NCBI GenBank assembly: GCA_016219375.1
Contig: JACRNC010000020.1
Location: 124,001-188,000, forward strand
DNA from: Burkholderiales bacterium
GTDB lineage: Bacteria; Pseudomonadota; Gammaproteobacteria; Burkholderiales; Burkholderiaceae_C
Direction: 5' to 3'
DNA length: 64,000 nt
Positions 2,161 to 19,178 of the stretch are shown here, piece after piece; the first letter of the stretch is position 1, and every line of letters begins with the position of its first letter. The notes under the pieces were generated by a model. That model made no database searches and was not told the DNA's origin. It was given only the letters and a program-made list of their open reading frames with translations. Both the position numbers and the translations under genes were made by a program.

Positions 2161-2316
2161 CCCCGCTCGCTCGCCGCGACGCTGACGCCGACGCTGTGCA
2201 GCACGCCGGTGGCGATGGCATGCAGACCCGCAGCCTTGCAGCCAGGATGCGCCTGCCGGCGTAGCCCGCGTCGGGCGCCTACACTGCCGGCCCGCCGCCC
2301 TGCCCTTGTCCGACTC

Positions 2317-2811
2317 ATGCCCCTGACCGCTCCCAGCCTGCGCCGCCGCATGGCCGCCTTTCTGTATGAAGGCGTGCTGCTCTTCGGCGTGACCTTCTTT
2401 GCCGGCTATGTGTATGCCACGCTGACGCAGCAGCGGCATGCGCTGCAGGGCCATGCCGGGCTGCAGGCCTTTGTGTTCCTGGTGCTGGGCCTCTACTTCA
2501 CCTGGTTCTGGTCGCATGGCGGGCAGACGCTGGCGATGAAGACCTGGCGCATCCGGCTGGTGTCTGACGCCGGCGGCCCGGTGGCTCCGATGCGCGCGTT
2601 GTGCCGCTATCTGGCGAGCTGGGTGTGGCTGCTGCCGCCGCTGGGGCTGGCCTTTGCGCTGCACGGCGGTCGCAGCGGCGGGCTGGTGACGCTGGCCCTG
2701 CTGCTGTGGATCGGCGCTTATGCGCTGTCGTCCTTCCTGCAGCCGCAGCGCCAGTTCTGGCACGACGTGCTGTGCGGCACGCGGCTGGTGAGCGCGGAGG
2801 GCAAGCGATGA
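2317..2811 (+). CDS. RDD family membrane protein
   Basis: A 164-residue integral membrane protein of the RDD family, named for Arg-Asp-Asp residues in the first helix region, here degenerate. Hydrophobic helices are seen at about residues 18-38 (FLYEGVLLFGVTFFAGYV), 52-68 and 100-140, with the family-like KTWRIRLVSDAGG and RQFWHDVLCGTRLV segments. Members are small inner-membrane proteins; some act in ion exchange, but no substrate can be named here. The stop overlaps the next start (ATGA), tying it to the LOG-family gene. ATG 2317 was chosen because upstream in-frame codons are low-complexity. Confidence 0.82.
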   Translation: MPLTAPSLRRRMAAFLYEGVLLFGVTFFAGYVYATLTQQRHALQGHAGLQAFVFLVLGLYFTWFWSHGGQTLAMKTWRIRLVSDAGGPVAPMRALCRYLASWVWLLPPLGLAFALHGGRSGGLVTLALLLWIGAYALSSFLQPQRQFWHDVLCGTRLVSAEGKR

Positions 2812-3392
2812 GCGGCCCGCGCTTCAGCGTGTGCGTCTACTGTGGCTCGCGGCCGGGGGCGCTGCCGGCCTATGCGGATGCTGCGGCCGAGGTCGGCCGG
2901 CTGATCGGCGCAGCCGGCGGCCGGCTGGTCTACGGCGGCGGGCGCAGCGGGCTGATGGGTGTGGTGGCCGATGCCACGCTGGCCGCCGGTGGCGAGGTGG
3001 TCGGCATCATTCCGCGCAGCCTGATGGACCGCGAGCACGGCCACACCGGGCTGACCGAGCTGCATGTCGTGGAGACCATGCACGAGCGCAAGCAGATGAT
3101 GGCCGAGCGGGCCGATGCCTTCCTGACCCTGCCCGGCGGCATCGGAACGTTTGAGGAGCTGTTCGAGACCTGGACCTGGCTGCAGCTGGGCTACCACGCC
3201 AAGCCGGTGGGGCTGCTGGACGTGGCGGGCTACTACGGCCCGCTGCGGCAGATGCTGGCGCATACGGTGCAGCAGGGTTTCTTCAGCCCGCAGCAGCACG
3301 ACACGCTGCTGGTGGATGAGTCGGCCGAGCGGCTGCTGCAGCGGCTGCGGGCGGCCTGCAGAGGCAACGGCGAGGACTACTCGCGGATCTGA
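2808..3392 (+). CDS. TIGR00730 / LOG family Rossmann-fold protein
   Basis: A 194-residue cytoplasmic protein of the lysine-decarboxylase-like LOG family. Members cleave nucleoside monophosphates to base plus ribose 5-phosphate (cytokinin riboside 5'-monophosphate phosphoribohydrolases). The diagnostic PGGIGTFEE motif sits near residue 108 and an YGGGRSGLMG nucleotide-binding loop near residue 43. The length is normal. It overlaps the RDD gene by 4 bases. In bacteria that do not live on plants the physiological substrate is often unclear, so general AMP-type nucleotidase activity is as likely as cytokinin activation. Confidence 0.88.
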   Translation: MSGPRFSVCVYCGSRPGALPAYADAAAEVGRLIGAAGGRLVYGGGRSGLMGVVADATLAAGGEVVGIIPRSLMDREHGHTGLTELHVVETMHERKQMMAERADAFLTLPGGIGTFEELFETWTWLQLGYHAKPVGLLDVAGYYGPLRQMLAHTVQQGFFSPQQHDTLLVDESAERLLQRLRAACRGNGEDYSRI

Positions 3393-3505
3393 GCGGGCTG
3401 GGGCCGAGCACCGGCCCCGGCACGCGGCCCGAGCCGTCCATGCGAGGGGGGTTGCCGGCCCCACGAGCCTTGCGTGGCGGGCCGGCCTGCCGGCCTAAGA
3501 CTGCC

Positions 3506-5560
<2,055 letters not shown>

Positions 5561-5562
<2 letters not shown>

Positions 5563-6811
5563 GAGCGCAAGCCTGGGCGGAGAGGGAAGAGGCAAAGCCT
5601 CGGTCGATGAAGCGGCGGGCGATGGTAGCGGCGCCTCGTGGCGCATCCTGGTGCATGACGACCCGAGCGAGCTGGACGCCGCGGCCTGGTGCGAGCTGCT
5701 CGATGCCAGCCCCGTGCCGACGCCCTTCCTGCACCCCGGCTGGCTGGCCGCCCTGCACGACAGCGGCAGCGCCACCGCCGACACCGGCTGGACGCCCGTC
5801 TTCCTGACGGTGGTCGATGCGCAGGGCAGCTTGCAAGCGGCTTGCCCGCTCTACCTGAAGGCCCACTCCTACGGCGAATACGTCTTCGACTGGGCCTGGG
5901 CGCGGGCGCTGGAAGAAGCCGGCCAGCCCTACTACCCCAAGCTGCTGTGCGCCGTGCCCTTCACGCCGGTGCCGGGCTCGCGGCTGCTGGCGCGCAGCCA
6001 GGAGGCGCGGGCGGTGCTGCTGGCCGCCATGCAGCAGCTGGCGCGGCAGCACGGGCTGTCATCCGCCCACCTGCTCTTCATGGACGAGGCCGACCGCGCC
6101 GCGGCCCTGGCTGCCGGCTGGCAGCTGCGCGAGACGGTGCAGTTCCACTGGGAGAACCGCGCGCCGCAGCCTTACGCCGATTTCGCCGGCTTCCTCGCCA
6201 GCCTGCAGCGTGAGAAGCGCAAGAAGATCCAGCAGGAGCGCCGCCGCGTGGCCGAAGCGGGCGTGACGGTCAGCGTGCGCCACGGCGCGGCGATCACGCC
6301 GCAGGACTGGGATTTCTTCTACGCCTGCTATGCGGCGACCTACCGGGCGCACCACTCCAACCCCTACCTGACGCGCGATTTCTTCAGCCGCTGGGCGCAG
6401 GCGCTGCCGCAGACGCCGCTGCTCTTCATCGCCGAGCGCAACGGCCAGCGCATTGCCAGCTCGCTGCTGGTTGTCGATGCGACGCGCGGCGTGGCCTGGG
6501 GCCGCTACTGGGGCAGCCTGGAGTGGGTGCCCTGCCTGCACTTCGAGCTGTGCTACTACGCGCCGATCGCCTGGTGCATCGAGCAGGGACTGCAGCGCTT
6601 CGAGGGCGGCGCACAGGGCGAGCACAAGATGGCACGCGGCCTGCTGCCGGTGCGCACGTGGTCCGCCCACTGGCTGGCGCATCCGGGATTGGCCGAGGCG
6701 GTGGAGCGCTTCCTGGCCCGCGAGCGGCAGGCCATCGGTGCCTATGTGAGCGAGCTCGATGACCGCAATCCGTTCAAGCCCCCAGCGGGCGGCGCGACGG
6801 ATGCGGAATGA
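5561..6811 (+). CDS. GNAT-like acyltransferase, DUF482 / peptidoglycan bridge-type
   Basis: A 416-residue protein of the DUF482 (FemAB-like GNAT) family. Recognisable conserved segments are PTPFLHPGWL near the start, EKRKKIQQERR in the middle, and FEGGAQGEHKMARGLLPV near the end. The family is annotated as an acyltransferase related to peptidoglycan bridge formation; the substrate is unknown. The first 25 residues from ATG 5561 are Gly/Ser-rich and not typical of the family, and this ATG overlaps the nadE start on the other strand, so a start further inside (for example a GTG just before the WRILVHDD region) is possible. Confidence 0.85.
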
Positions 6812-13612: not shown

Positions 13613-14059
13613 TTGCCTCGCCGACCACCCGCCTTCCTGCTGCTCGCCGCCCTCCTGTGCGGCTGGCTGATGGCGGCCGGCGCGCGGGCCGAGCCGGCCA
13701 CGCTCTACCAGCAGCTGGGCGGGCGGCAAGGCATCCAGGCGGTGACCGCGCGGATGATCGAGCGCAGCGCGCATGACCCGCGCACCGCTGCCGCGCTGCG
13801 CGGCGCGCGGCTGGGGCCGCTGGCGCGGCAGGTGGCCGACTATGTCTGCGAGCTGGCCGACGGCCCCTGCGTGTTCCGCGACGGCGGGCCCGCCCTCTAT
13901 GGCCGGCTGGCGGTCACCGAGCCGGCGTTCGCGGTGATGATGGCCACGCTGCGCGAGGAGCTGCAGGCCGCCGGCGTGCCGCTGGCCGCGCAGGCCGAGC
14001 TGCTGCGCCGGCTGTCGCCGCCGGCCTCGGCGGTGATCCTGGCGGACATGCCGCCCTAG
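13613..14059 (+). CDS. Exported truncated-globin-like protein lacking the proximal histidine
   Basis: A 148-residue protein of the group 1 truncated hemoglobin fold: LYQQLGGRQGIQAVTARMIE at the start, then an E/F-helix region VADYVCELADGPCVF and LREELQAAGVPLAAQAELLRRL. A TTG at 13613 yields a good signal peptide ending at GARA before EPATL, so the product is probably periplasmic. Where truncated globins and the paralogue at 15339 carry the heme-binding His (SHADLGIT), this protein has LYGRLAVT, so heme binding is doubtful. A C-x6-C pair is shared with the paralogue and could form a disulfide. The start is uncertain because the gene begins 14 bases after pepP. Confidence 0.65.
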   Translation: MPRRPPAFLLLAALLCGWLMAAGARAEPATLYQQLGGRQGIQAVTARMIERSAHDPRTAAALRGARLGPLARQVADYVCELADGPCVFRDGGPALYGRLAVTEPAFAVMMATLREELQAAGVPLAAQAELLRRLSPPASAVILADMPP

Positions 14060-14181
14060 GCGGGGCGCGGCGGGTGCAAGCTCTGCTGCGGCTGCGGGCA
14101 GGCTCGCAACCCTGATGCACGACCAGCTGGCTCAGCCGCTATGGGCGGCGCGGCCCGCTGCAGGCCTGGCTCAGGACGGCC

Positions 14182-15123
14182 TCAGAACGACACCTGCCCC
14201 GACAGGTACCAGCCCTGCTGGTCGGGCTTGTCGGCGATGTTGCCCAGGTCTACCCAGGCGGCCGTCAGGCTCAGGTGGCGGCTGGGGAACCAGGCGATGA
14301 AGAGGTCGCGCGCCGACTCTTCCTTGAAGCTGCGCAGGTTGTCCGGCTTGGCCCGCCACTCCGCGCCCAGCACCAGGTCGTCGCGCAGCATCAGGCCCAG
14401 GCTGAGCTCGGGCATGAGCTGGTGGCGGTCGTTGCCGTCGCCGCCGAAGCCCAGGATGCCGAACTGGTTGGCCCGGGTGGCGCGCAGCGTGGCGCTGGTC
14501 AGCAGGTTATGGCCGGCCACCGCGCCCAGCCACAGCTTGGTGGCGCTGAGGTAGACGTCGAAGTCGTCACTGCGCCGCGCGCCCAGCAGGCGGGGCACCA
14601 GGGCGTAGTCGGCGTTGCGCTTGTACTGCAGGCCCACGGCGATCTGCGGCAGCCAGCGGTCCTGGTCGTAGACCGCGTCGCCGGCCACGCGCAGCTTGGC
14701 GCCCAGCACGTCCACCCGCGCCGACTCGCCGGGCACGGTGTCGCTGAAGCGGAAGCTCCAGCGCGCCATGCTCAGCTCCACGCGGTCCCGGATGCCGACT
14801 GCCGCGCCGACGATCTGCAGGTCGAAGTCGCCGCGGGTGCGGATGGCGGTGACATAGGCCGAGCCGCCCGCCTGGTCGCTGCTGCCCGGCCCGGCGATGA
14901 CCGCCCACGGCGTCAGCCCGCCGCCAGCCGCGCCTTCGACCTGGCTCACGCCCCAGGTGCCCAGCAGGCGGTCGCCGGCGTGCGCTGGCAGGGCCAGCCC
15001 GGTGACGGCGGCCAGCGCCAGAAGTGGCCACCACAACGCCCGGCCTGCCGCCCGCCGCGGCACGGCGGGCAAGCGGCAGGGCAGCGGTGCGGCGGGTCGG
15101 CGGGAAGCGGGGTATCGGGTCAT
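14182..15123 (-). CDS. DUF3034 family protein, probable outer-membrane beta-barrel
   Basis: A 313-residue exported protein. From ATG 15123, an Arg-rich start and the hydrophobic stretch LWWPLLALAAVTGLALPAHA form a signal peptide. The mature part begins with the family-like LLGTWGVSQVEGAAGGGLTPWAVIAG and continues with alternating beta-strand patterns, ending in a terminal Phe (GWYLSGQVSF) as outer-membrane barrels do. The function of DUF3034 is not known to me. It sits between two exported globin-like genes and diverges from the cupredoxin and c-di-GMP genes, suggesting a shared process. Confidence 0.82.
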   Translation of the reverse strand: MTRYPASRRPAAPLPCRLPAVPRRAAGRALWWPLLALAAVTGLALPAHAGDRLLGTWGVSQVEGAAGGGLTPWAVIAGPGSSDQAGGSAYVTAIRTRGDFDLQIVGAAVGIRDRVELSMARWSFRFSDTVPGESARVDVLGAKLRVAGDAVYDQDRWLPQIAVGLQYKRNADYALVPRLLGARRSDDFDVYLSATKLWLGAVAGHNLLTSATLRATRANQFGILGFGGDGNDRHQLMPELSLGLMLRDDLVLGAEWRAKPDNLRSFKEESARDLFIAWFPSRHLSLTAAWVDLGNIADKPDQQGWYLSGQVSF

Positions 15124-15295
15124 GGTTCTACTGACGGGATCAGGCGGGGGCACGCCAGCAGGCGGGCCGGGGCGGCAGGCCTGCGGTGGCGCGGTGGCGT
15201 GGTGGCGACGTGCTGGGCTGGGCATCGGGCGGTTGACCCGGCCTCGTGCCCGGGCGGTGCCCCGGCGGCACGCCGGGGGCATGCGCCCGCATTCA

Positions 15296-15329
15296 GTTGC
15301 CCAGCCTATCGGCCGATAAGCCGGGCAAC
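15296..15329. promoter_or_regulatory. Nested palindrome, candidate operator or 5' hairpin
   Basis: A perfect 12-base palindrome TATCGGCCGATA (15307-15318) is framed by the inverted repeat GTTGCCC (15296-15302) and GGGCAAC (15323-15329). It lies between the divergent DUF3034 and lipoprotein-globin genes, 10 bases upstream of the latter's assigned start. It could be a binding site for a dimeric regulator or an RNA stem-loop over the start. No known consensus is recognised. Confidence 0.4.
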
Positions 15330-15338
15330 TTGATCCTC

Positions 15339-16007
15339 ATGCGCGCCGCGCGAGTGGGCGGCGCCTGCCTGGCCGCGTCGCCATTCGCGTCGCGGTTCGC
15401 CATTGCCCCCTCCATCGTGAACTACGCCCTGCTCCCCACACCGCTGCCGCCCTCCGACCCGCGCCCCTGCCCGCTTGTCGAAGACCTGGCCGAGGCCGGC
15501 CCGCCCTGGAGCGCCTCCACCGCCCTGCTGGCCGCTGCCCTGACGCTGCTGGGCTGGCTGCTGGTGGGCTGTGCCAACGTAGCCCCGCCGCCCGGCCCGG
15601 AACTGCCCACGCTGGCGCTGCCGCAGCCGCAGCCGCAACCGAAGCCCCAACCGCAGCCGCTTTTCCAACGCCTGGGCGGCGTGGAGGCCATCCAGCGCCT
15701 GAGCACCCGCGTGCTGGACCGCACCGCCGGCGATGCGCGCACCGGCGCCAGCTTCAAGGGCGTCAACCGCCGGGTGCTCGACCGCAGCGTTGCCGACTAC
15801 CTGTGCCGCGTGGCCGACGGCCCCTGCGTCTACGAGGGCGAGACCATGCGCAATTCGCACGCCGACCTGGGCATCACCGGCTCGCAGTTCGACCTGATGG
15901 TGCAGTTCCTGCGCGAGGAGCTGGACGCCGCCGGCGTGCCGCAGTCGGCCAAGAACGAGCTGCTGCGCCGCGTGGCGCCGACGCGGCGGGACATCGTGCA
16001 GCGGTGA
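15339..16007 (+). CDS. Truncated-globin-like lipoprotein
   Basis: A protein of up to 222 residues whose C-terminal 115 residues are a group 1 truncated globin: LFQRLGGVEAIQRL, ADYLCRVADGPCVYEG and SHADLGITGSQFDLMVQFL, in which the His fits the proximal heme ligand. The Tyr usual in the B helix is not evident. A hydrophobic helix ending in LLVGC looks like a lipobox, followed by a Gln/Pro linker (PQPQPQPKPQPQP) that would hold the globin off the membrane. The start is uncertain: ATG 15339 and GTG 15417 both place the lipobox unusually far from the N-terminus. Confidence 0.7.
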   Translation: MRAARVGGACLAASPFASRFAIAPSIVNYALLPTPLPPSDPRPCPLVEDLAEAGPPWSASTALLAAALTLLGWLLVGCANVAPPPGPELPTLALPQPQPQPKPQPQPLFQRLGGVEAIQRLSTRVLDRTAGDARTGASFKGVNRRVLDRSVADYLCRVADGPCVYEGETMRNSHADLGITGSQFDLMVQFLREELDAAGVPQSAKNELLRRVAPTRRDIVQR

Positions 16008-16012
16008 GCAGG

Positions 16013-16693
16013 ATGAAACCCATGCCGAGCCTTGCAGCGCTCCCCACCCGCGCCCGCGCCGCAGCCGCTGCCCTCCCTCTGCCGACCAAGCTGGCGACCA
16101 CGCTGCCAACCACGCTGGTGATCGCCCTGGCAATCACCCTGACGGCAGCCGGCCCGGCCGCTGCCGTGCCGGTCAGCGTGCGCGTGCTCGGCCCGCAGGA
16201 CGCGCCGCTGGCCGACGCGGTGGTCGCCATCGAGGTAGCCGGCGAGCCTCGCACCGCACCGCCCGGCACCCATGCCGAGATGGGCCAGCGCCAGCGCCGC
16301 TTCATGCCCAGCGTGCTGGCGGTGCAGGCGGGTACCGCGGTGGCCTTTCCCAACTTCGACACGGTGCGCCACCACGTCTATTCCTTCTCACCGATCAAGC
16401 CGTTCGAGATCAAGCTCTATGCCGGCACGCCGGCGGCGCCGGTAGTCTTCGACAAGCCCGGCACCGCGGTGCTGGGCTGCAACATCCACGACACGATGGC
16501 CGCTTTCATCCACGTCGTGGCCACCCCCCACTTCGCCAAGACCGACGCCACCGGCCAGGCCAGCCTCGACGTGCCCGCCGGCAGCCACCGGCTGCTCGTG
16601 TGGCACCCCGGGCTGGGCGCCGATGCCGCGCCCCAGGCCCAGGCCGTCAGGCTGCCCGGCCCGCCGGTGACCGTGAAACTGGCCCTGCCCTGA
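16013..16693 (+). CDS. Cupredoxin-like protein, annotated family 'methylamine utilization protein'
   Basis: A 226-residue exported protein. The N-terminus ends in a hydrophobic stretch and AAGPAAA before VPVSVRV, a likely signal peptide. The mature part resembles cupredoxin-like proteins often labelled methylamine utilization protein: VAFPNFDTVRHHVYSF supplies a His, and VLGCNIHDTMAAFI supplies Cys, His and Met close together, in the order of type 1 copper ligands. It starts 6 bases after the globin lipoprotein stop; ATG 16022 is an alternative with better ribosome-binding spacing. No methylamine dehydrogenase genes are near, so the family name probably misleads. Confidence 0.75.
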   Translation: MKPMPSLAALPTRARAAAAALPLPTKLATTLPTTLVIALAITLTAAGPAAAVPVSVRVLGPQDAPLADAVVAIEVAGEPRTAPPGTHAEMGQRQRRFMPSVLAVQAGTAVAFPNFDTVRHHVYSFSPIKPFEIKLYAGTPAAPVVFDKPGTAVLGCNIHDTMAAFIHVVATPHFAKTDATGQASLDVPAGSHRLLVWHPGLGADAAPQAQAVRLPGPPVTVKLALP

Positions 16694-16700
16694 CGCCCCG

Positions 16701-19178
16701 ATGACCGTCGCCGCCCCCGCCCGCCGCCCGCGGCTGGCCCTGCGCATCGCCGGGCTGTCGCTGGCCCTGCTGCTGGTGATCCAGGCCGTCAGCCTGGTGC
16801 TCATCCGCCGCAGCATCGAGGCCAATGCCCGCCAGTCGCTGCGCCAGTCCCTGGCCCAGGGCGAAGGCGTGCTGCGCAGCCTGCTGGCGCGCAATGCCGA
16901 CCACCTGCTGCAGGCCACGCACGTGCTGGCGGCCGACTACGGCTTCCGCTCGGCCATCGCCAGCGACGACCGCGACACCATCGCCTCGGCCCTGGCCAAT
17001 CACGGCGAGCGCCTGGGCGCCAGCGTCATGCTGCTGACCGATGCGCGCTTCGAGGTCAAGGCCAGCGCCGGGCCGGTGTCGGCGGCCATGCTGCAGCAGC
17101 GGCTGCTGCCGCAGGTGCGGCGCAGCGCGGTGTCGCCCACTGCCGTGCAGGCCGAGGACGCCCACATCGCCCTGCTGGACGGCGAACCCTTCCAGGTGGT
17201 CGCCGTGCCGGTGCGCGCGCCGCTGGTGGTGGGCTACGTGCTGATGGGCTTTCCGCTGCAGGACAGCCTGCTGCAGGAGATGCGCCGCCTGACCGCTCTG
17301 GACGTGGTCGTGCTCACCCGCGACAGCAGTAGCGGTAGCGGCCCCGGCAACGGCAACGGCAACGACCCCGGCGCCTGGCGCAGCCCGCACGCCACGCTGG
17401 CCGCCGACGATGTGCAGGCCGTGCGCGCGCTGTGGGGCGACGCCAGCCGGCGCCCGGCCGCAGGCGATCTGCGCGCCGAGCTGTCTGCCGGCAGCAGCCT
17501 GGCCCGCGGCGTGGTGCTGCGCGCCGGTGACGGCGCCGCGCCGGCAGCGGTGGCGGTGTTGCTGGGCTCGGTGGACGAAGCCATCGCCCCCTACCGGCCG
17601 CTGCAGTGGGCCGTGCTGCTGCTCACGGGAGTGGGCGTGGCTGTGTTCGCCGTGGGCAGCCTGATCACCGCGCGGCGCATCACCACGCCGCTGTCCACCC
17701 TGGGCACCCTGGCCCGGCGCCTGGCCGCGGGCGACTATGACGCGCCCCTGCCCGCCGCACGGCCCGATGAGATCGGAGAGCTCGCCGCTTCCTTCGAGGC
17801 CATGCGCCAGGCCGTGCGCCAGCGCGAGCAGGCCATCCGCGACCAGGCCTACACCGACCCGCTGACCGGCCTGCCCAACCGCGCGCAGTTCAGCGCCGAG
17901 CTGCGCGATGCCGTGGCCCGGCAGCAGCCGGGCGGCCCGGACTGCGCCGTGCTGCTGCTGGACCTGGACCGCTTCAAGCAGGTCAACGACGTGCTGGGCC
18001 ATGAGTTCGGCGACCTGCTGCTGCAGCAGGTGGCGCGGCGGCTGCGCAACCTGCTGCCCGCCGGCACCTGCCGCCTGGCCCGGCTGGGCGGCGACGAGTT
18101 CGCCGTGCTGCTGCAGCCCGGCGGCACGGCCCAGGCCATCGAGCTGGCCGGGCGCATCGCCCTGGCCCTGGAGCAGCCGCTGGTGCTGGGCGGCCAGCCG
18201 GTGGACCTGGGCGCCGGCATGGGCGTGGCCGCCTGCCCCGATCACGCCGGTGACGCCGCCACGCTGCTGCGCCGCGCCGAGATGGCGCTCTACCAGGCCA
18301 AGCAGACGCAGGCCGGCGTGGTCGTCTTCCAGCCCGAGCTGGACGCCACCACGGCCGAGTCCCTGTCGCTGCTGGGCGAGCTGCGCCAGGCGGTGGATGG
18401 CGACCAGCTGCGCGTCTACCTGCAGCCCAAGGTGGCGCTGGACGGCCGCATCGTCGGCGCCGAGGCCCTGGTGCGCTGGCAGCACCCCGAACGCGGCCTG
18501 GTGCCGCCCATGCGCTTCATCCCGTTTGCCGAGCAGACCGGCTTCATCCGCACGCTCACCGCCTGGCTGATCGAGCAGTGCGCGGCCATCGGCCGCCAGT
18601 GGCAGGACGCCGGGCTGGACCTGGCACTGGCACTGAACCTGTCCACCCGCGACCTGATCGACCCCGAGCTGCCCGCCCGGCTGGACGACGTGCTGCGCCG
18701 CCACGGCCTGCCGCCGCGGGCCTTCGGCCTGGAGATCACCGAGAGCGCCATCATGGACGACCCCCAGCGCGCGCTGCAGACGCTGGAGCGGCTGCACGGC
18801 ATGGGCATGAGGCTGTCCATCGACGACTTCGGCACCGGGTATTCGTCGCTGGCCTACCTCAAGCGGCTGCCGGTGGATGAGCTCAAGATCGACAAGTCCT
18901 TCGTCATGAACATGGAGCGCGACGCGCAGGACGCCAAGATCGTGCGCTCCACCATCGACCTGGCCCACAACCTGGGCCTGAAGGTGGTGGCCGAAGGCAT
19001 CGAGAACGAGACCGCCTGGCGGCTGCTGGCCGCGCTGCAGTGCGACCAGGCCCAGGGCTACTGGATCGCCCGCCCCATGCCGGCCGACCAGTTCATCGAC
19101 TGGGTGCGCAGCTGGCAACCCCCGGCCTCCGACCATCTAGCCGGGATGGCGACCTTCACGCCCAGCGAGCTGGGCTGA
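16701..19178 (+). CDS. Bifunctional diguanylate cyclase/phosphodiesterase with periplasmic sensor
   Basis: An 825-residue inner-membrane c-di-GMP protein. Order: transmembrane helix near 17-34, extracytoplasmic sensor to about 300 (probably Cache-like), second helix near 302-325, HAMP, GGDEF domain with an intact GGDEF at about 462, then EAL domain with EALVRW near 586 and DDFGTGYSS near 706. Both catalytic motifs look complete; the RxxD product-inhibition site before GGDEF is not seen. It follows the cupredoxin gene by 7 bases, so a periplasmic redox, gas or metal signal read by the neighbouring exported proteins could feed into it. That link is inferred. Confidence 0.92.
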   Translation: MTVAAPARRPRLALRIAGLSLALLLVIQAVSLVLIRRSIEANARQSLRQSLAQGEGVLRSLLARNADHLLQATHVLAADYGFRSAIASDDRDTIASALANHGERLGASVMLLTDARFEVKASAGPVSAAMLQQRLLPQVRRSAVSPTAVQAEDAHIALLDGEPFQVVAVPVRAPLVVGYVLMGFPLQDSLLQEMRRLTALDVVVLTRDSSSGSGPGNGNGNDPGAWRSPHATLAADDVQAVRALWGDASRRPAAGDLRAELSAGSSLARGVVLRAGDGAAPAAVAVLLGSVDEAIAPYRPLQWAVLLLTGVGVAVFAVGSLITARRITTPLSTLGTLARRLAAGDYDAPLPAARPDEIGELAASFEAMRQAVRQREQAIRDQAYTDPLTGLPNRAQFSAELRDAVARQQPGGPDCAVLLLDLDRFKQVNDVLGHEFGDLLLQQVARRLRNLLPAGTCRLARLGGDEFAVLLQPGGTAQAIELAGRIALALEQPLVLGGQPVDLGAGMGVAACPDHAGDAATLLRRAEMALYQAKQTQAGVVVFQPELDATTAESLSLLGELRQAVDGDQLRVYLQPKVALDGRIVGAEALVRWQHPERGLVPPMRFIPFAEQTGFIRTLTAWLIEQCAAIGRQWQDAGLDLALALNLSTRDLIDPELPARLDDVLRRHGLPPRAFGLEITESAIMDDPQRALQTLERLHGMGMRLSIDDFGTGYSSLAYLKRLPVDELKIDKSFVMNMERDAQDAKIVRSTIDLAHNLGLKVVAEGIENETAWRLLAALQCDQAQGYWIARPMPADQFIDWVRSWQPPASDHLAGMATFTPSELG

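Follow-up and report, generated by a model that had tools for sequence, protein, structure and literature searches.

The inputs of many cyclic di-GMP (c-di-GMP) enzymes are unknown, and the YfiR-YfiN and NspS-MbaA pairs are examples of c-di-GMP receptors that operate together with a periplasmic partner. The window studied here, a stretch of 64,000 nucleotides (positions 124,001 to 188,000 of contig JACRNC010000020.1) from the Burkholderiales bacterium assembly GCA_016219375.1 (3.58 Mb, 24 contigs), encodes an exported cupredoxin directly ahead of a transmembrane dCache-HAMP-GGDEF-EAL receptor, together with a DUF3034 protein and two exported globin-like proteins. In the HmsC-HmsD system, a redox case in a table of the review PMC8846402, the gene for an exported protein adjoins that for a transmembrane GGDEF/EAL receptor whose sensor is periplasmic. 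The same arrangement of exported partner and adjacent transmembrane receptor was found for the window pair, export being read from the N-termini. In contrast to HmsC-HmsD, YfiR-YfiN and NspS-MbaA, the proposed partner here belongs to the cupredoxins and has type-1 copper ligands, and four output types occur among the receptors. The heme, flavin and disulfide sensors of c-di-GMP enzymes share the gas or redox input proposed below; in most of those, treated in PMC8846402 and PMC12889525, however, the cofactor or disulfide lies inside the receptor itself, whereas here a separate cupredoxin is encoded. The main text of PMC8846402, a review of c-di-GMP inputs, contains no word starting with copper or cupredoxin. 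A search of open-access literature, by title or start of the abstract, yielded no paper on cupredoxin-receptor pairing and no account of DUF3034 function. Receptors with an exported partner encoded next to them are already known; to our knowledge, a copper-type partner with interchangeable outputs is new.

On balance we consider it probable, if far from certain, that the window encodes a two-protein sensor in which the periplasmic cupredoxin is the accessory partner of the dCache-HAMP receptor. All five genes listed in the initial annotation of this locus were recovered in the window from open reading frames, translations and Pfam profiles. The cupredoxin (16013-16693, plus strand, 226 amino acids) matched none of the cupredoxin profiles in Pfam at E<=0.1; its fold, supported by structure comparison of the predicted model, forms an insertion at about residues 83-169 (16259-16519, plus strand; model residues 32-118) within a carboxypeptidase-regulatory-like domain, where the rows of PDB 2nsm, 3mn8 and 3e8v cover model residues 1 to 174-175. 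The closely spaced Cys, His and Met that had first drawn attention to this protein indeed occupy type-1 copper ligand positions, namely His120 (16370-16372) and Cys156-xx-His159-xx-Met162 (16478-16498). These ligands (His, Cys, His, Met), established by sequence and model, are present in 127 of the 127 aligned rows with residues at those columns, and the columns are invariant in a 44-row alignment; the exported protein would, judging from its sequence, carry a complete type-1 copper site. It resembles the amicyanin- and plastocyanin-type cupredoxins in fold and in the His...Cys-xx-His-xx-Met ligand pattern, the short Cys-xx-His-xx-Met loop being that of amicyanin, and it differs from them in being embedded in a carboxypeptidase-regulatory-like domain and paired with receptors. 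Its relatives are publicly annotated as 'methylamine utilization protein', a label that is probably misleading for an exported cupredoxin. The closest of them by identity is that of Aquabacterium parvum (64%), and the cupredoxin of the same-genus genome G306 (locus L194) is identical to that of Aquabacterium sp. record L067; the host of the window probably belongs to Aquabacterium. Seven bases downstream, the transmembrane receptor (16701-19178, plus strand, 825 amino acids) matches dCache_3, HAMP, GGDEF and EAL in Pfam, in agreement with the domain order initially assigned to it, and both catalytic motifs (GGDEF and EALVRW) are intact in its translation.

The pairing was assessed in the family to which the window belongs (250 genomes), where strong cupredoxins were defined by E below 1e-60 (90 rows among the matches listed) and receptor sensors by E below 1e-20 (106 hits). 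For 88 of the 90 listed strong cupredoxins, the receptor gene follows directly downstream in the same orientation, the aligned domains being 24-148 bases apart; in genome G357 it is about 1.5 kb off in the same cluster, and in G430 it lies elsewhere beside unrelated genes. Both genes were present in 60 of 60 stretches of 4 kb read for these listed cupredoxins, in which coverage on the upstream side of the cupredoxin ends after about 2.6 kb. The receptor subfamily was found in 96 of the 250 genomes; among the matches listed, it is present in 90 of 90 cupredoxin genomes versus 6 of 160 others (Fisher 2e-61, a value overstated since the genomes are related). Given the 37 GGDEF matches in the window genome, we estimate that a GGDEF neighbour would arise at random with a chance on the order of 1%.

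Across the class, the receptor sensor is kept while the output domain changes, and the cupredoxin stays. The class sample of 274 genomes contained 23 long cupredoxins (E<1e-30), with a receptor within 1.5 kb of 17 and further away in the same stretch for three (L264, L267, L270); loci L029, L271 and L275 have none. The outputs of these 20 receptors comprise 11 GGDEF-EAL pairs (including L021, split across overlapping frames), three nucleotide cyclases, one histidine kinase and five Ser/Thr kinases. A cupredoxin tree was built from 112 of 128 hits and the window protein, with weak and short rows dropped; alignment A1 omits L002, whose frame is broken by a stop. In this tree, the histidine-kinase row falls inside a supported GGDEF-EAL set, the cyclase rows lie amid GGDEF-EAL rows where the tree is unresolved, and the kinase rows cluster, with support, with those from Lysobacterales. 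Output swapping, like the gene pairing itself, is established by sequence.

In the mechanism that we infer, the cupredoxin would bind copper, and its copper or redox state would be read by contact with the periplasmic domain of the receptor; the signal would then pass through HAMP to the output, which in the window is GGDEF-EAL. Because the EAL motif is commoner than GGDEF among the receptors (60 versus 40 of 69, by crude patterns) and no RxxD inhibitory site precedes GGDEF in the window receptor translation, c-di-GMP breakdown would be the likelier main activity of this protein, and the better conserved EAL half may lead to net breakdown. The step suggested in the initial annotation, from a gas, redox or metal signal to control of c-di-GMP, may hold for the window in this form.

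Several receptor variants were also observed. Membrane Ser/Thr kinases with Cache-type sensors adjoin the cupredoxin in L272 (3088-5895), L273 (4133-6202), L274 (4051-6186) and L025 (8811-11417), the last of which has an extra stretch between HAMP and kinase that is cyclase-like by eye and has no Pfam match at E<=0.01. The Lysobacterales receptors L094 (8718-9791), L099 (7375-9201) and L108 (7888-9786) end without an output domain (Pfam was run on L094 only). The gene order in L264 (2616-6671) and L267 (6377-10399) is receptor, intervening gene and cupredoxin, and the intervening gene of L267 has a sub-threshold match to an outer-membrane barrel.

The proposal that the five genes are functionally linked held as far as linkage is concerned; a single unit was not found, and the locus is instead composed of two modules that also occur apart, namely the cupredoxin with the dCache-HAMP receptor and DUF3034 with the exported truncated globin. 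This modularity is established by sequence. DUF3034 was detected in 91 of the 250 family genomes (92 hits) and 15 of the 274 class genomes; from those 92, 40 family stretches were hand-picked, chiefly among the highest-ranking hits, and the GTDB set comprises the best 80 loci out of at least 508, biased to the most similar. Scattered homologues, which would have counted against the linkage, were not what was observed: DUF3034, exported globin, cupredoxin and dCache receptor stand together in 7 of the 14 other DUF3034 genomes of the evenly drawn class sample. The same four occur jointly at 42 of the 80 best GTDB loci and at 6 of the 40 family loci. The cupredoxin-receptor module occurs without DUF3034 in 74 family loci read.

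The best-placed alternative, which we nevertheless regard as rather unlikely, concerns this joining. DUF3034 and globin could form a heme or nitric oxide (NO) unit of the envelope unrelated to the receptor, with neighbourhood drift bringing the modules together in the window, and such a reading is compatible with a cupredoxin-receptor core. It is favoured by the 25 of the 80 best GTDB loci that hold DUF3034 and globin only. The joined state, however, is scattered over the cupredoxin tree, where the starred branches require no fewer than 10 changes for the joined GGDEF-EAL label and 5 for the unjoined one, and it is found in the genus of the window as well as among methylotrophs and other proteobacteria, including the distant groups Methylophilus, Rhodanobacter and Thalassolituus. 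It is seen again where cupredoxin and receptor are both unrelated to those of the window: in L103 (10377-13124) and the alphaproteobacterial L114 (6522-8912), the genes after DUF3034 and globin encode a short cupredoxin of a different type and a receptor that lacks a dCache match, with GGDEF-EAL and histidine kinase outputs, respectively. Since both cupredoxin and receptor are replaced by analogues in these two loci, their gene content speaks for a functional association of all four, the channel and globin as well as the copper protein and receptor.

The DUF3034 protein (14182-15123, minus strand) matches PF11231 with E=1.2e-100 and 336.8 bits against a gathering score of 25. Its initial description as an outer-membrane-type protein is borne out by the model (predicted local distance difference test score, pLDDT, 90.0), a predicted outer-membrane beta-barrel of 12 long strands with a C-terminal Phe. 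The best structural matches are FapF, KdgM, NanC and the COG4313 channel, all 12-strand outer-membrane channels, to which its identity is just 6-11%. A globin adjoins DUF3034 in 8 of the 14 class loci besides the window, in 79 of the 80 best GTDB loci and in 46 of the 47 family loci read (40 of 40 and 6 of 6, with none in L286). The corresponding window gene, glb2 (15339-16007, plus strand, 222 amino acids; PF01152, E=7.6e-11), encodes an exported truncated-globin protein with its globin domain at residues 103-220, the F8 His at position 174 and the pair Cys156/Cys163; a lipobox-like LVGC motif at residues 75-78 and a Pro-rich tether were read from the sequence. A crude scan of the N-termini of 131 globin rows from such clusters classified 31 as lipobox-like and 37 as Sec-like, with 63 unclassified.

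Among these 131 cluster globins, the proximal His is present in 128, the residues of the Cys pair in 130 and 126, and CD1 Phe in 124; in the other three, Tyr (window glb1), Ala (L216) or Leu (L217) stands in place of the proximal His. Position B10 is Ile, Val, Leu or Met in 122 of 130, E11 is Leu, Ile, Val, Phe or Met in 131 of 131, and E7 is almost always apolar. In globin sequence and proximal His, glb2 is similar to HbN-type group 1 truncated hemoglobins (PDB 1idr/2gl3); unlike HbN, the cluster globins are exported and have a conserved Cys pair and an apolar distal pocket, with mostly Ile, Leu, Val or Met at B10, E7 and E11. The alignment places Tyr33, Leu54 and Gln58 of HbN in these three columns, Tyr B10 and Gln E11 being the polar residues of its O2 binding; such distal residues are not what the cluster globins carry. 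Because B10 and E11 are apolar, glb2 is termed here a 'group 1-like' truncated hemoglobin, with no O2 role claimed. An apolar exported globin with a Cys pair beside a channel would be better suited to handle NO or some other small ligand than to store O2. The 74 cupredoxin-receptor loci without DUF3034 (20 and 54) contain a globin in L216 and L217 only, both lacking the His, whereas a His-bearing globin lies near all 14 DUF3034-linked strong cupredoxins (linkage assigned from coordinates); on this basis the globin heme site is seemingly retained only alongside DUF3034, although two cases are suggestive only. In the proposed mechanism, the DUF3034 channel and a heme-binding exported globin would form a second envelope unit, and where the modules are joined this unit would handle whichever small molecule or gas (NO, O2 or heme-linked) determines the cupredoxin state.

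Carrying electrons is the classical role of cupredoxins, and the window protein could have such a role, or handle nitrogen oxides or copper, in an envelope redox chain, with the receptor merely co-transcribed so as to adapt behaviour to that same condition and making no contact. We hold this to be unlikely, slightly more so than neighbourhood drift. It would fit the existence of a cupredoxin clade that occurs with DUF3034 and globin and without the receptor, and it would fit the short cupredoxins of the class sample: of 20 that were fetched (L363-L382), mostly with C-A-I-H-P-x-M, 15 are followed by a CxxCH protein (CxxCH read by eye from the starts of the proteins). The long cupredoxins, on the other hand, are followed by the receptor in all but two of the listed family cases, the pairing persists through the change of receptor output, and no recurrent redox enzyme adjoins them by neighbour clustering, a weak test in GC-rich DNA. 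The short proteins were themselves rejected as instances of the same pairing, given their CxxCH neighbours and a GGDEF-EAL gene beside only two of the 20, directly downstream in L377 and upstream in L365. The seven intermediate rows L276-L282 (E 3e-27 to 6e-24) have no adjoining receptor of this group. Least probable, in our view, is that the dCache domain binds a small ligand of its own and the cupredoxin just protects the system, serves in copper loading or is the product of a target gene under regulation: Cache domains are regarded as ligand-binding domains in PMC12889525 and PMC11245519, and 18 of the 106 family receptors have no adjoining strong cupredoxin, but why this receptor subfamily, among the 37 GGDEF matches of the window genome, should have a cupredoxin is then left unexplained.

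A number of observations weigh against the two-protein sensor, or limit its reach. The 18 unpaired receptors, and six family genomes with a receptor and no strong cupredoxin among the matches listed, indicate that the receptor can exist without the cupredoxin; 17 of the 18 were read and have varied neighbours. In one of these, L286, the receptor gene and a divergent gene for DUF3034 stand back to back (2165-5679), and the 8-kb stretch of this locus contains no globin or cupredoxin. In the pooled loci sets, many of them selected through DUF3034, a receptor lies within 1.5 kb of 83 of 118 cupredoxins (E<1e-30), and 29 of the other 35 are linked to DUF3034 and globin. The receptor-less clade mentioned above, divergent and 14 rows strong in the tree, is linked to DUF3034 alone, and seven loci of the Aquabacterium clade retain DUF3034, globin and cupredoxin but no receptor. 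The receptor is likewise missing from 12 of the 80 best GTDB loci with DUF3034, globin and cupredoxin: six from Aquabacterium, one of the DUF3034-linked clade, L058 and L079 (cut by contig ends), L087, and L103 and L114 with their other receptors. Five of the 14 class DUF3034 loci besides the window have no other cluster gene (L034 being cut by a contig end). No near-invariant Cys, His or Met was found in the alignment of the receptor sensor domain, which speaks against metal hand-over; metal-accepting sites in the sensor were rejected on this ground. The receptor output is not c-di-GMP in all relatives. Furthermore, counts over related genomes are not independent, and gene pairing alone does not prove contact.

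Together, these neighbourhoods point to an undescribed sensing of external redox state, copper or gas in many proteobacteria, by an exported blue-copper-type protein beside a messenger-controlling receptor, often accompanied by an exported globin and an outer-membrane channel. More tentatively, and with less confidence than for the window pair, periplasmic cupredoxins could be redox- or copper-reading partners of Cache receptors in general, with one input serving four outputs (c-di-GMP, cyclic nucleotide, His kinase and Ser/Thr kinase) and, in joined clusters, a dedicated channel and a heme globin feeding it to make a four-protein NO or redox sensor of the envelope. The cupredoxin would provide a genome-supported input partner for a receptor subfamily spread over more than a third of the family genomes, roles are suggested for DUF3034 and for the 'methylamine utilization protein', whose label is probably wrong, and whether copper or redox state feeds into c-di-GMP control becomes directly testable with two proteins.

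The remaining features of the locus are of minor weight. The last three plus-strand genes were expected to lie within 8 bases of each other, and the measured gaps are 5 bases (glb2 to cupredoxin) and the 7 bases given above. The genes glb1 and DUF3034 are convergent, and DUF3034 and glb2 diverge, 215 bases apart. The divergence across a palindrome stood up to inspection: an imperfect palindrome of 36 bp (15295-15330), with 18-bp arms and 2 mismatches, scored 12 in the palindrome scan, and 300 mononucleotide shuffles reached 11 at best. Its conservation did not, as none of 52 relatives with the divergent arrangement has a palindrome scoring at least 10 between DUF3034 and the globin, and the perfect core TATCGGCCGATA occurs once in the window genome; a conserved operator was rejected on these grounds. 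Single-linkage clustering of neighbouring open reading frames for another universal gene, a weak test, returned only lineage synteny and antisense frames. The first gene, glb1 (13613-14059, plus strand, 148 amino acids, TTG start), encodes an exported globin-like paralogue that matches PF01152 (E=2.1e-7) and retains the Cys pair. Two exported truncated-globin-like proteins are thus present as annotated, with the heme ligand kept in glb2 alone. Given its F8 Tyr and the single globin in the stretches read from three congeners (L183, L194, L195), glb1 was rejected as a part of the system and is probably a lineage-specific side copy. Plasmid records were included in the searches: plasmid p1 of Caballeronia grimmiae carries DUF3034, a group 1 truncated hemoglobin, a methylamine utilization protein and an EAL protein in a tight row, and on a Comamonas aquatica plasmid (L301, 3946-5534) a DUF4394 gene directly precedes those for a methylamine utilization protein and an EAL protein.

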